34,588 nucleotides of DNA from Anaerolineae bacterium (GTDB taxonomy: Bacteria; Chloroflexota; Anaerolineae; Aggregatilineales; JAFGMM01): the NCBI GenBank assembly GCA_016927535.1, contig JAFGMM010000295.1, positions 1 through 34,588 of the forward strand, given 5' to 3'. Positions 16,453 through 21,679 of the stretch are shown here, piece after piece. Numbering within the stretch: the first letter of the stretch is position 1; each line of letters opens with the position of its first letter. Both the position numbers and the translations under genes were made by a program. Below the pieces are notes generated by a model that was not told where the DNA came from, did no database searches, and saw only the letters and a list, made by a program, of their open reading frames with translations.

Positions 16453-18582
16453 ATGAAGTCTAGGCGATTGTTTGTTGCGATAGCGCTTGTGGTGCTTGGT
16501 TTTTCGGGGACGGTGGGCGCGGCGCAACAAGATGATCTTGTTGCGCCGGAGGTGAGGCAAGCGCTGGCAAGCACGGGGCAAGCCGGGGTCATCGTCGCGT
16601 TTCATGATCCCGTCGCCATCGGCGCGGACAATGCGACCCGGCGCGCGGCGGTGGCGCAGTTGCAAGATGATCTCCTGGCGAATCTGCCGGGTTTTACGCT
16701 CACGTACCGCTATATGTATATCCCCGCGCTCGCCGGGACGATTGCGTCCGCGCACCTGGCGGCGCTCGAAGCAAAGCCGTACATCGCGCGTGTCGAGTTC
16801 AACATCCCGCTGCAAGCGACCTTGAACGACGTCCGGCAGTTGATTAACGCGGACGCCGGGTATGCTCTGGGATATACCGGCGCCGGGATCCGAGTGGCGG
16901 TGCTGGACAGTGGCGTTGACACCGACCACCCGGACTTGCAGGACTCGATCATGGCGCAGCAGTGCTACAATAGCGCGCCTGCCGACTGCCCGCCGGGTAA
17001 CACGCCTACAGGCAGCAGCGCCGAGGATGAGAACGGGCACGGGACCAACGTCGCCGGTATTATCACTTCTAACGGGACCGTTGCGCCACGCGGCGTCGCG
17101 CCCGATGCCGAGATTGTCGCGGTGCGGATCCTCAACACGTGGGGCGGCGGCAGTATGGCCGACGTCATCGCCGGCCTGGACTACGTGCGCGGCCTCGGCA
17201 GTGTGCACCTGATCAACCTCAGCCTGGGCGGTGCGACGACTTACCCGGCTGCCTGCGATGCGGTTGTTCCTGCCCTGGCGAACGCCGCGCACCAGTTGGC
17301 GGCGCAGGGTACGGTCATCATTGCGGCGTCGGGTAATTACGCCTCGACCGGCGGTGTGTCGATCCCGGCCTGCGTGAGCGATATCATCCCGGTCGGGGCG
17401 GTTTATGACGCCGACGTGGGGTCTCAAAACTGGGGCGTATGCATCGACGCAACCACCGCCGCCGACCGGGTCGCCTGCTTTACCAACCGTGGCCCTAATC
17501 TCGCTCTGTTAGCGCCGGGCGCCCTGACCCTTGCGCCGGGCGCCGGCGGCGGGACCTCGCAGATGGGCGGGACCTCGCAGGCCGCGCCCGTGGTCACGGC
17601 AGCGGCGGCGGCGCTTTTCCAGGCCGGCGGGGTGATGTCGCGCGGGGCGTTGGCCGGCCTGCTCCACGATACCGGCGTGCCGATTTTTGACGCAAGTACC
17701 GGCTTGACGTTCCGGCGCATCGACTTGTATCGCGCGCTGCAACAGGTTCTCTCGTGGGCCGGGAGTGCGCAGCCGGAGACCGTGTGCCGGACCGCGATGG
17801 CTTTCCGCAGTGCAGACCCCGCGCCGTTCGACGGCGAGATTCGCTTTTATACGCGCTTCGATTACGATCCGGCATTCCAGGTCGAGGGTTGGCTTGAAGA
17901 TACGCTGCCCGTGGTCGCCGGGGTCTATACGGCCGGCGAGGTCGAGGTGGGCTGCGGCTTGCATGTGCGCGCCTGGCTGTTCGATGCACACGGCGCGCCG
18001 GCGGGCCTGGTACCCAGCCAGTACGAAAACGGCGACGCGACCTTCGTCCCGTACACCGAGGACTATGGGACCGGCGGCGATGCAGTCCTTAACCCGGTAT
18101 ACGCCGGGCGCTATGCCGATTTGTTCCCGGCGGCTAAGAGCGACGCGCCGGCGGCTTTGCGGGGCGGCGAGATTATCAAGACCACAATGGGCGACGCGCT
18201 TGAGTGGGGTCTGGTGCGAGATGGCGTGTACCGCGCGTTGGGCTGGTCCTGGACGGCGGGCGATGGATCGGTGGGCTGCTCGGTCCCGGAGGCCGGCCTG
18301 TTATCCCTGGATGAGTTCTGCGCGTGGGTCGGCGGCGCGCCGGCGGCGACCGGGACCGGTAAGAGCGAACCGGTGAATGCTGCCGCCGCTCCCCAACTCG
18401 GCGGCGAGATTATGCAGCACGCCGTGGGCGACGCGATTGAGTGGGGCTTGGTGCAGAACGGCGTCTACACGACGCTGGGTTGGAGTTGGGACGCGGGCGA
18501 AAACTTGGTCGGTTGCTCCATCCCGGAGGCCGGCCCGATGACCGTCGAAGCATTTTGCGCCTTCGTCGTCAGGCAGCAGTAG
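16453..18582 (+). CDS. Secreted S8 family serine peptidase (subtilase) with tandem C-terminal repeats
   Basis: Signal peptide; catalytic motifs AVLDSGVDTDHPDL, HGTNVAGII, GGTSQAAPVVTAAAAALF. Confidence 0.92.
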   Translation: MKSRRLFVAIALVVLGFSGTVGAAQQDDLVAPEVRQALASTGQAGVIVAFHDPVAIGADNATRRAAVAQLQDDLLANLPGFTLTYRYMYIPALAGTIASAHLAALEAKPYIARVEFNIPLQATLNDVRQLINADAGYALGYTGAGIRVAVLDSGVDTDHPDLQDSIMAQQCYNSAPADCPPGNTPTGSSAEDENGHGTNVAGIITSNGTVAPRGVAPDAEIVAVRILNTWGGGSMADVIAGLDYVRGLGSVHLINLSLGGATTYPAACDAVVPALANAAHQLAAQGTVIIAASGNYASTGGVSIPACVSDIIPVGAVYDADVGSQNWGVCIDATTAADRVACFTNRGPNLALLAPGALTLAPGAGGGTSQMGGTSQAAPVVTAAAAALFQAGGVMSRGALAGLLHDTGVPIFDASTGLTFRRIDLYRALQQVLSWAGSAQPETVCRTAMAFRSADPAPFDGEIRFYTRFDYDPAFQVEGWLEDTLPVVAGVYTAGEVEVGCGLHVRAWLFDAHGAPAGLVPSQYENGDATFVPYTEDYGTGGDAVLNPVYAGRYADLFPAAKSDAPAALRGGEIIKTTMGDALEWGLVRDGVYRALGWSWTAGDGSVGCSVPEAGLLSLDEFCAWVGGAPAATGTGKSEPVNAAAAPQLGGEIMQHAVGDAIEWGLVQNGVYTTLGWSWDAGENLVGCSIPEAGPMTVEAFCAFVVRQQ
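18163..18567 (+). repeat. Two 56-aa tandem protein repeats (GGEI...GDAxEWGL...GVY..LGWSW.AG...GCS.PEAG....FCA.V)
   Basis: Copy 1 18163-18330 and copy 2 ~18400-18567, aligned by eye without gaps. Confidence 0.85.
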
Positions 18583-18694: not shown

Positions 18695-19711
18695 TTATTC
18701 CACTGGCGCCATACCGGTGGCAATGGCGGCGGCGGTCGCGGCGACTAGTTCGGCGGTCATCTCGACCTGCGCCGGTTTGACGTTTGTATAGATATCCCCC
18801 TCGGTGTGCATCACATCACCGTCTTCGGTCTCGGCGCCCCACCAGGGATTCTCGATGCCTTCGCCCTCCCACAGCCACGCCTCGAAGTAGACAATCGGCA
18901 CGTCCGCTTCTACAAAGGCATAGTGGTCGCTCCAATCGCCGGTGAACCCGCCCCAGGTCGTGTCCGGCGTGGTGCCGAAGGGCAGCCCCATCTCGGCGGC
19001 CAGGTCGAGCGCGAGGTCGCGCACCCACACCGGTCCGCCTTCGATTTCGGGGGCGGCGTCTTCGGGAGCATCCTCGCCCGGCCAGGTGACGAGCGCGCCT
19101 GCGTAGGCATTGAGCGCGTCGCCCACGCCCACCGAGTCGATGTTAATCATGGCGATCACGTCTTCGACGCCCTCGCCCAAGCTCTCGACGTAGTAGCTGG
19201 CCCCAGACGGCGAGCCGCCCTCCTCGGCGCCGAACGTGATGAAGACCAGGGTGTGCGTCGTCGCAACGCCGGCGAGCGCCTCGGCGGCGGCAAGCACCGT
19301 GGCGACCCCGGTCGCGTTGTCGCCGGCGCCGGTCGCAGCGGTCACCGAATCCATGTGCGCGCCGACGACGACAATGCCTTCATCGCCGGCTTTGGTCGCA
19401 ATGACGTTATGAGAGGTTACCGGCTCTTTTGCCTCCTCGCCGTGCGCGGGCGGCGTGGTCTCGAATGCCTGGATTTCGACCTCGTAGCCCCAGTCGATGA
19501 ATGCGGCGGCGATGTACTCGGCAGCCTTCATCTCGGCCTCGCTGCCCATCGGGCGCGCGCCGATAGCGACCGACAGGGCGCGGACGTGCGACATGACATC
19601 TTCGGTGGCGATGAGCGTGACGAAATCGGGCAGCCCATCCTCGGCGAGCGCAGCGGCCGGCATGACGACCAGCGTCAGCGCCAGCAAGAACATAAAGGGT
19701 TTGCGAAGCAT
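18695..19711 (-). CDS. Secreted M28 family metallopeptidase (aminopeptidase-like)
   Basis: VVVGAHMDSVTAATGAGDNATGVATVLAAAEAL, FITFGAEEGGSPSGASYYVESL; signal peptide MLRKPFMFLLALTLVVMPAAALA; SD aggagg. Start trimmed from 19792. Confidence 0.9.
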   Translation of the reverse strand: MLRKPFMFLLALTLVVMPAAALAEDGLPDFVTLIATEDVMSHVRALSVAIGARPMGSEAEMKAAEYIAAAFIDWGYEVEIQAFETTPPAHGEEAKEPVTSHNVIATKAGDEGIVVVGAHMDSVTAATGAGDNATGVATVLAAAEALAGVATTHTLVFITFGAEEGGSPSGASYYVESLGEGVEDVIAMINIDSVGVGDALNAYAGALVTWPGEDAPEDAAPEIEGGPVWVRDLALDLAAEMGLPFGTTPDTTWGGFTGDWSDHYAFVEADVPIVYFEAWLWEGEGIENPWWGAETEDGDVMHTEGDIYTNVKPAQVEMTAELVAATAAAIATGMAPVE

Positions 19712-19750
19712 GGATTCCTCCTGTGAAACGATGAGTTGAGTTGGTATAGA

Positions 19751-19781
19751 TAAACAAAACCCCCGGACGCAGGTCCGGGGG
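19751..19781 (-). terminator. Attenuator-type intrinsic terminator between leader peptide and M28 gene
   Basis: Minus-strand CCCCCGGAC-CTGC-GTCCGGGGG-TTTTGTTTA: 9-bp perfect stem, 4-nt loop, U-tract. Confidence 0.8.
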
Positions 19782-19850
19782 CGGGTACACAAAGGCGATC
19801 AGGGAATGCTAACAAGCGTACATCAACCGCGCCGAACCTGTGCGATTCGG
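19771..19850 (-). promoter_or_regulatory. Alternative attenuator pairings (segments 1:2 and 2:3)
   Basis: Segment 1 CCGAA (19850-19846) pairs with TTCGG (19836-19832). AGGTTCGG (19839-19832) pairs with CCGGACCT (19778-19771) by 7 Watson-Crick pairs plus one G-U, disrupting the terminator. Confidence 0.6.
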
Positions 19851-19894
19851 GTGTTACGACGACTACGGCGGCTGATGAGTGTCTTATAGAACAT
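19823..19894 (-). CDS. Arg-rich 23-aa leader peptide MFYKTLISRRSRRNTRIAQVRRG
   Basis: Read codon by codon; ATG 19894, TGA ending 19823; SD AGGGGAG (19906-19900) 5 nt upstream; promoter immediately upstream. Confidence 0.65.
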   Translation of the reverse strand: MFYKTLISRRSRRNTRIAQVRRG

Positions 19895-19917
19895 GATTAC
19901 TCCCCTGGCTTGCGCAT

Positions 19918-19946
19918 ACAGTACCCCATTTGCGAGAAAGTGTCAA
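19918..19946 (-). promoter_or_regulatory. SigA-type promoter for the leader peptide/M28 transcript
   Basis: TTGACA (19946-19941), 17-nt spacer, TACTGT (19923-19918). Confidence 0.7.
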
Positions 19947-19966: not shown

Positions 19967-21679
19967 TTAAGCGCCTTGCACCTCGCGCGCCGGCGCGACC
20001 GTGACCGACGTTTCGTTGCGATAGGTCACCATGCCATCCCCGGCGCCCTTGATCTTGCGGACGTGCTTCCGCCGCGTCACGTCCACCAGCACGCCGGCTT
20101 CGCCGCGTTTGGGCGAATAGCGCGCGGCGAGCGCGGCGGCGTATTCGATGACCTTATCTGGGATGGTGCGCCCGTCGTTCTTGATGATGACGTGCGCGCC
20201 GGGCACGTCACGCGCGTGCAGCCACAGGTCTTCGGGCGCGCCGCGTTTAAAGGTCACCTCGTCGTTCTGGCGGGCGTTGCGTCCCACCCAGATCACAAAG
20301 CCGTCGTCGGTAGTAAGGCGCAGCGGTTGGGCCTTGCCACCGCTGGGGCGCTTCTTTTGCGGGCCGGGCACGTAGCCGAGCCTTTCCAGCGTCTCGCGCA
20401 CTTCTTCGATTTCGGGCCAGTTGCTCGCCAAGTCCAGGTCGAGCGCCAGTTGATCCAGGAAAGCGGTCGCGCGCCAGACCTCGGCGATGAGCTTGGGCAC
20501 GCCGGCGTTGGCGCTCTTGGCCTTGTTGTATTGTTTGAAGTAGCGCTGGGCGTTCTCGACCGGGCTGAGCGCGGGGTCGAGTTCGACGGTGATCTCCGGG
20601 CCGTCTACCTCGTAGGCGGCGGCGAAGCGAGTCTGGCCCGGCTTCAGCGTGTACTGGTAGGCCAGGATCAGCTCACCGCTGCGGCGCAGGTGTTCGAGTT
20701 CGGCGGGGTCTTGCTGCGAGCGCTCCAGCGCTTCCAGCTTGCGGCGCAGTTTATCCTGCGCTTCTTGGATGCTCTCCCGAACCGGCTTCTTGGCAGCGTT
20801 GTAAGCGTCGGCGCCGACCGGCGCGCCGTAGAACGCTTCGACCGCTGCGCTGATCGACGCCGCCGGGCGCACCCGGTCCAGGTGAGTCAACCGGTAGGGC
20901 GCAAAGGCCAGCGCGCCGCCGTACTCGTCTTCGGCGATGCAGGGCTGCCAGTCGCGCTCCCAGAGCGGCATGATGACGGTCTCGATTTCCGCTTGCAGGT
21001 CCTCGACCGAGGGAATCGCCCCGGCCGGCGTGTCGATGTCCTGCGCCGTGCGGAAGACCACCTCGCGCGCGAGCAGCGGGCTGAACCCCGCCAGATGCTT
21101 GACCAACATACGCCAAGCCGCCAGGTCGGGGTCGGCCTGTATCCAGCCTTCGAGCACGCGGCGGGTGACGCCGGTCGGGTCGGTTTTGATCTGGGGCGGC
21201 GGCGGCGCGTAGAGGTGTCCCGGCAGGCTCAGCCGCACCCGGTTATCCTGCGGCCCCACGCGCCGGATGCACTCCAAGATCATGTCGTCTTCATCGACCA
21301 GTAAGATGTTCCCGCGCCGCTCGATGCACTCCGCGATCACGCGGTACCCGCCGTCGAGACTCTCAAAGTCGAAGCACAGCACGCGCTCCCAATCCGGGAC
21401 GGTGACGGCGCGCAGCCGGGCGCCGCTCAGGTGGCGGCGCAGGCGCAGCGTCAGCGGGTCGGGTTGCTGCACGCCGCGCCGGAACTTATCGCTTGCCAGG
21501 TGGACGCGCGGGTTCTGGGGTGTGGCGCTCAACAGCAGGTAATGGCGCGCCTGCTGCGCGTAGATTTCCATGCCGACGCTGAAGTCATCGACCTGGAGGA
21601 TGTTCTGCACACGCCCGCCTTTGAGCCGTGCGCGCAGTTCGTCGCCGACGGCGGCGGTGGTCAGTGCGTCGAAATACAT
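19967..21679 (-). CDS. rqcH-like: NFACT family protein (RqcH / Rqc2 homolog, FbpA-like)
   Basis: MYFDALTTAAVGDELRARLKGGRVQNILQ start; NARQNDEVTFKRGAPEDLWLHARDVPGAHVIIK and VLVDVTRRKHVRKIKGAGDGMVTYRNETSVTV, typical NFACT-N/NFACT-R. Confidence 0.95.
   Translation of the reverse strand: MYFDALTTAAVGDELRARLKGGRVQNILQVDDFSVGMEIYAQQARHYLLLSATPQNPRVHLASDKFRRGVQQPDPLTLRLRRHLSGARLRAVTVPDWERVLCFDFESLDGGYRVIAECIERRGNILLVDEDDMILECIRRVGPQDNRVRLSLPGHLYAPPPPQIKTDPTGVTRRVLEGWIQADPDLAAWRMLVKHLAGFSPLLAREVVFRTAQDIDTPAGAIPSVEDLQAEIETVIMPLWERDWQPCIAEDEYGGALAFAPYRLTHLDRVRPAASISAAVEAFYGAPVGADAYNAAKKPVRESIQEAQDKLRRKLEALERSQQDPAELEHLRRSGELILAYQYTLKPGQTRFAAAYEVDGPEITVELDPALSPVENAQRYFKQYNKAKSANAGVPKLIAEVWRATAFLDQLALDLDLASNWPEIEEVRETLERLGYVPGPQKKRPSGGKAQPLRLTTDDGFVIWVGRNARQNDEVTFKRGAPEDLWLHARDVPGAHVIIKNDGRTIPDKVIEYAAALAARYSPKRGEAGVLVDVTRRKHVRKIKGAGDGMVTYRNETSVTVAPAREVQGA

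Follow-up and report, generated by a model that had tools for sequence, protein, structure and literature searches.

A predicted arginine attenuator of an argC/argG leader family precedes a secreted M28 peptidase gene in an uncultured Aggregatilineales bacterium

The window analysed here is a DNA stretch of 34,588 nt from an uncultured bacterium of the order Aggregatilineales, phylum Chloroflexota, in which an M28 peptidase gene is preceded on the minus strand by a short open reading frame (ORF) and a set of alternative stems. The original prediction had described this arrangement as an Arg-responsive transcription attenuator controlling the peptidase, and all of its minus-strand coordinates were verified in the sequence (Table 1). 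By inspection, the peptidase has a signal-peptide-like stretch at its N-terminus. It contains 4 Arg in 338 residues (1.2%) and its orthologs are mostly Arg-poor as well; the low Arg content would fit a scavenging purpose, though it may be a family trait. A gene for a secreted subtilisin-like protease of 709 aa (16453–18582, plus strand; catalytic motifs by inspection) converges on the M28 gene, so that two secreted proteases are adjacent.

The upstream neighbour of the element, rqcH, ends in a weaker terminator-like hairpin, GTGCAAG...CTTGCAC (ATTTTGTC), at its stop codon (19981–19958, minus strand), and this hairpin would shield the leader promoter from rqcH. A leader tied to rqcH itself was rejected, since the stretches behind rqcH read in 26 relatives contained no comparable leader. 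In one genome of the same family (G001), rqcH was present as two adjacent frames (L067, G001:C24:520928-522617), probably by a frameshift or a sequencing error.

The leader ORF and its Shine-Dalgarno (SD) sequence were present exactly as originally described, with 7 Arg at codons 9, 10, 12, 13, 16, 21 and 22, which makes it a short ORF with a ribosome binding site in which codons for a single amino acid are clustered. The positions of the proposed promoter were also correct and its −35 sequence is perfect, but the −10 sequence is weak (3 of 6 positions matched) and a promoter scan of the window called no site there. The competing upstream hairpin, given earlier as CCGAA/TTCGG, was found as CCGAAUC (19850–19844) paired with GGUUCGG (19838–19832), and is additionally nested in an outer stem of 10 pairs between CAUCAGCCGC (19877–19868) and GCGGUUGAUG (19830–19821). 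The claimed antiterminator pairing of AGGUUCGG (19839–19832) with CCGGACCU (19778–19771) turned out better than described, extending to nine continuous pairs (CAGGUUCGG:CCGGACCUG). Between the leader ORF and the M28 gene lies the expected intrinsic terminator, a GC-rich hairpin of 10 pairs (−21.0 kcal/mol) with a T-tract behind it. The argG leader of this genome (CCCCCGGACCACCCGUCCGGGGGUUUUU) and the argC leader of one other genome of the same family have near-identical terminators.

Table 1. Positions of the leader element and its neighbouring genes in the window
Feature	Position	Strand	Basis
Probable promoter: TTGACA 19946–19941, 17-nt spacer, TACTGT 19923–19918	19918–19946	−	Sequence
Leader ORF Shine-Dalgarno, AGGGGAG	19900–19906	−	Sequence
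Leader ORF MFYKTLISRRSRRNTRIAQVRRG, 23 codons, ATG 19894, TGA 19825–19823	19823–19894	−	Sequence
Segment 1:2 protector hairpin, outer and inner stem	19821–19877	−	Sequence and folding; family 1:2 helix covaries
Segment 2, CAGGUUCGG, leader codons 19–21, predicted antiterminator 5′ half	19832–19840	−	Folding; family 2:3 covariation
Segment 3, CCGGACCUG, predicted antiterminator 3′ half, overlapping terminator arm and loop	19770–19778	−	Folding; family covariation
Intrinsic terminator (3:4), GCCCCCGGACCUGCGUCCGGGGGU then UUUGUUU	19759–19782	−	Scan and sequence
Stretch matched by covariance model R1, 38.1 bits	19750–19870	−	Model of argC leaders, window left out
M28 gene Shine-Dalgarno, AGGAGG	19717–19722	−	Sequence
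M28 peptidase, 338 aa, ATG 19711	18695–19711	−	Pfam PF04389, E 6.4e-27
NFACT/RqcH-type protein (rqcH), upstream neighbour, outside the switch	19967–21679	−	Pfam PF05833

In relatives, the upstream regions of argC contained short ORFs with RRxRR clusters followed by a C-rich terminator and a U-tract, such as MKIVFNLPRRQSRRTPSTLYGFGQAIARALGVV with the terminator GCCCCCGGACCCGTAGGTCCGGGGGC in the other genome of the window's family examined and MFFNAIPRRRRSRRPVTNEVSSGFLR in another family. Many genomes of Aggregatilineales, and some Anaerolineae outside that order, had an Arg-rich leader and a terminator before argC or argG; what these leaders conserve is the Arg cluster, the peptides otherwise varying widely. 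We built a covariance model (R1) from an alignment of eight argC leaders, with the window excluded. RNAalifold on the same eight leaders recovered the 1:2 hairpin as well as the terminator, with 7 of the 17 pairs changed on both sides. R1 matched the window element significantly at 38.1 bits (E 1.6e-7 for 214 kb and 3.9e-6 for its whole genome, both rough values). Over that whole genome, the element ranked second to the argG leader (41.8 bits) and ahead of a leader before a transporter gene (25.5 bits) and the next match (18.1 bits), so that, the one intermediate leader aside, it stands well clear of the background in bits. Seven further argC leaders from other genomes, left out of R1, scored 22–59 bits.

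Matches to R1 were obtained in 51 of 101 relatives. Within the order, every match of at least 27 bits preceded argC or argG, the window's excepted, and matches of about 20–26 bits were counted as Arg attenuators solely when they preceded either gene. In Anaerolineae outside the order, 7 of 12 further matches read precede argC, most with Arg-rich leaders, and one precedes an aminotransferase-like gene, possibly argD. The position before argC or argG is a feature of the family's usual target and not of its mechanism. A TTGAC sequence stood before the leader in 40 of the 48 family members aligned. Among these, the closest relative of the window element was the argG leader of its own genome (65% identity over 106 aligned positions), in which TTGACA lies ∼17 nt before TATCTT; the two are alike in promoter, Arg cluster and terminator. 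A T-box or other Rfam riboswitch was rejected for the window, where nothing matched near the gathering score, and the argC/argG leader loci scanned against Rfam 15 matched no family.

We evaluated covariation in the alignment of the 48 family members (A8). For the 1:2 and 3:4 pairs, 90.7% of cells were standard with a score of 0.456, compared with at most 0.11 when the pairing was slid, these counts being inflated by the fitting of A8 to the R1 structure. The 2:3 antiterminator, which is outside the R1 structure, was paired in 67.6% of cells with a score of 0.191, compared with 28–50% and at most 0.133 when slid. All three stems postulated for the window therefore covary in the argC/argG family.

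Predicted folding of the window element depended on the ribosome. With a ribosome at codons 9–13, the antiterminator had a probability of about 0.99 or higher for as long as the 3′ arm of the terminator had not yet emerged; with no ribosome, the 1:2 hairpin had a probability of 0.999 and the antiterminator one of ∼0; and with a ribosome near the leader stop codon, segment 2 was covered and the antiterminator impossible. The postulated choice between mutually exclusive stems by ribosome position thus holds in predicted folding and in covariation. At equilibrium the completed terminator was more stable than the antiterminator, and the switch must therefore be kinetic, as in trp. The fold model gave the family as a whole a mean sequestration of the terminator arm of 0.76 with a stalled ribosome, 0.52 with no ribosome and 0.19 with a ribosome at the stop codon, many members being without a clear no-ribosome state (median contrast 0.12).

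The ribosome-dependent contrast of the window was reached by none of 1000 dinucleotide shuffles with the stall fixed at codons 9–13 and by 2 of the 1000 when any of the tested stall positions was allowed. The 8-nt 2:3 duplex alone was ordinary, being equalled by 80% of shuffles, but only 1.4% of shuffles matched the complete duplex between the leader and the terminator arm (−19.6 kcal/mol). In a comparison with 58 natural terminators taken from 787 kb of this genome, comparable or higher contrast was found for 2 with the fixed stall and 5 with any stall, placing the window third and about sixth, respectively; fold contrast by itself is therefore suggestive, and we rejected it as a proof in its own right because some natural terminators reach similar values. 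The top match in this set was a convincing Leu/Ile/Val attenuator before ilvD-ilvB. Judged on sequence, it is the comparative evidence that settles the reality of the element.

Conservation before M28 orthologs, proposed earlier as a check, did not hold. An R1 search around the orthologs fetched from 17 genomes of the order and 14 GTDB loci detected no such element, and no leader or terminator of this type preceded any ortholog found; the orthologs were mostly 52–72% identical, mostly of one sister family and mostly located behind an epimerase-like gene. Viral contigs searched for an M28 relative contained none. By this criterion, which the original prediction had named as a refutation, the attenuator would have failed; but the element is conserved before argC and argG, and a comparison of M28 upstream regions was thus, as far as these genomes indicate, directed at the wrong genes. 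With the element missing before all M28 orthologs examined in other genomes, its pairing with M28 depends on a single MAG contig and is best described as a predicted link.

The same absence would be expected if a real Arg attenuator were an accidental neighbour of the M28 gene, a relic or stray copy that had moved in while the peptidase used a private promoter just past the terminator. A −10-like TATACC is indeed present at 19748–19743, downstream of the leader terminator, and several M28 orthologs have TATAAT/TATACT/TAAAAT-like sequences ∼40 nt before their start. On inspection, however, TATACC has no convincing −35 sequence alongside it, and the stems, Arg codons, SD and U-tract of the element are all intact. 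The M28 gene has a good SD, no gene intervenes, and the 48 nt between terminator and M28 start are similar to the spacing in argC and argG leaders. We consider an accidental neighbourhood unlikely.

Two other readings fared far worse. The original prediction had named drug-responsive arrest as an alternative, in which macrolide-bound ribosomes stall at the RxR/RRSRR motif and induce the downstream gene. ErmDL-type leaders have +x+ patterns, and such patterns do occur within RRSRR, but family members precede argC or argG instead of resistance genes and a peptidase is implausible as a resistance determinant; a macrolide-type leader was thus rejected on gene association and is very improbable. 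It is just as hard to credit an independent short transcript, from a gene for an sRNA or a small basic protein that has its own terminator and is unrelated to M28. The ORF does have a terminator, an SD and a promoter-like sequence to itself, and peptide searches in 61 relatives and 298 genomes of the class gave nothing but chance matches inside other genes. However, the 1:2, 2:3 and 3:4 pairing is family-wide at a constant position before arg genes, and the peptides diverge outside the Arg cluster, which would be expected if they served as sensors rather than as proteins.

We also observed other leaders in this genome and its relatives. As an Ile/Leu/Val-rich leader (MTRQTLISLLSIIVIVLVLDGA) with a terminator precedes ilvD-ilvB, the organism evidently uses classical attenuation, to judge from its genome. 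This locus (L151, G000:C67, 6243–6700) apparently has tandem leader units downstream of a TTGACA promoter-like sequence, MTRQTLISLLSIIVIVLVLDGA with its terminator being followed by MPAAALILALIVVVIVGLLLAIEKEEPQVGTAPVQAREAG with a second terminator-like hairpin. The 25.5-bit match to R1 corresponds to the leader VFKSQTRRHHRNQNNVL (Arg/His/Asn/Gln; RRHHRNQNN), which with its terminator precedes a gene for an SBP_bac_3 amino-acid-binding protein and has a TTGACA promoter-like sequence (L291, G000:C209, 1136–1400, minus strand). Before a leuS-like gene (L161, G000:C77, 8270–8620), a T-box-like sequence AGGGTGGTACCACG with a terminator, below the Rfam gathering score, was followed by another short ORF, MRQDVMDGVYNHRAVCRLALSLTMPVC, and a further terminator. 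In two relatives, leaders with Met codons (L271 and L267; e.g. MSMVMRSPRRDRRRDALRA) preceded metG (MetRS)-looking genes, which suggests Met attenuators, and in another (G056, L266) a candidate leader containing Phe/Tyr, MMATLYFAYPSFYGPSCACAVRWMGAG, preceded a chorismate mutase/DAHP synthase-like gene. Neither argC nor argJ was detected in the window's own genome, an 89%-complete MAG, though argG is present; either a gap in the assembly or an incomplete Arg pathway may be the cause, and in the latter case scavenging would be more important.

Together, the match to R1, the sister copy at the genome's own argG, the covarying stems and the folding logic support the Arg-responsive attenuator that had been proposed. 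We regard it as highly probable that the element is a ribosome-mediated attenuator sensing charged tRNA-Arg and a member of the Anaerolineae argC/argG leader family, located before a secreted M28 peptidase gene. The leader codons and the association of the family with argC and argG point to Arg as the signal. With ample Arg, the ribosome would reach the leader stop codon and cover segment 2, the terminator would form and M28 would be left untranscribed. With scarce Arg, stalling at codons 9–13 would open the 1:2 hairpin, and the freed segment 2 would capture segment 3, delaying or preventing the terminator so that M28 is transcribed. Without translation, the 1:2 hairpin would keep segment 2 and transcription would terminate. 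We infer that the promoter is used, that transcription reads through into M28 and that Arg limitation induces the peptidase; the cell thus probably makes a secreted enzyme when short of arginine, the presumed purpose being peptide scavenging alongside induction of argG. Whether argG, an amino-acid-binding transport protein and an Arg-poor secreted peptidase are induced together by a single family of Arg-sensing RNAs, as a leader-RNA starvation regulon, is, in our estimate, evenly balanced; if so, amino acid attenuation in this lineage extends beyond biosynthesis to nutrient acquisition.

Arginine genes are usually regarded as being under ArgR/AhrC repressors or T-boxes. In the open-access literature, we found no description of an Arg attenuator from Chloroflexota or of a peptidase under attenuation, and both the Arg attenuator family and its secreted-peptidase target are provisionally new. 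The family is a covarying Arg attenuator across an order, in a phylum with little genetics, and the leaders of argC, argG, M28 and the transporter gene are testable members of a possible leader-RNA regulon. If true, the M28 leader would clearly exemplify the recruitment of a classical attenuator for scavenging.

The logic of classical ribosome-mediated attenuators, such as those of Escherichia coli trp and Salmonella his, has been reviewed (PMC1183508). The window element has in common with the trp, his and ilv attenuators the clustered regulatory codons in a leader peptide, the 1:2, 2:3 and 3:4 stems and the intrinsic terminator before the gene, but it would sense Arg and its target is a secreted peptidase rather than a biosynthetic enzyme. 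With the argC/argG leaders of Aggregatilineales, and the argC leaders of other Anaerolineae, it shares an RRxRR-type cluster, the GGUYYGG/CCGGACC antiterminator, a C-rich terminator with a U-tract and the position before a gene, while differing in that this gene encodes an M28 peptidase. In the Salmonella speF leader, consecutive Arg codons of ORF34 sense Arg supply and alter the folding of the downstream RNA (PMC6386406). Arg codons in a leader ORF that affect RNA folding downstream are thus common to both systems, whereas speF involves Rho, RNase G, sequestration of the ribosome binding site and an ornithine decarboxylase gene, with no intrinsic terminator switch described (PMC6386406). In a survey of Actinobacteria, attenuators and T-boxes were reported for Trp, Cys and branched-chain amino acids, arginine operons were without a conserved RNA element, and T-boxes for Arg were cited from elsewhere (PMC1262725); what the window element shares with those actinobacterial attenuators and T-boxes is RNA-level control of amino acid genes outside the Proteobacteria.
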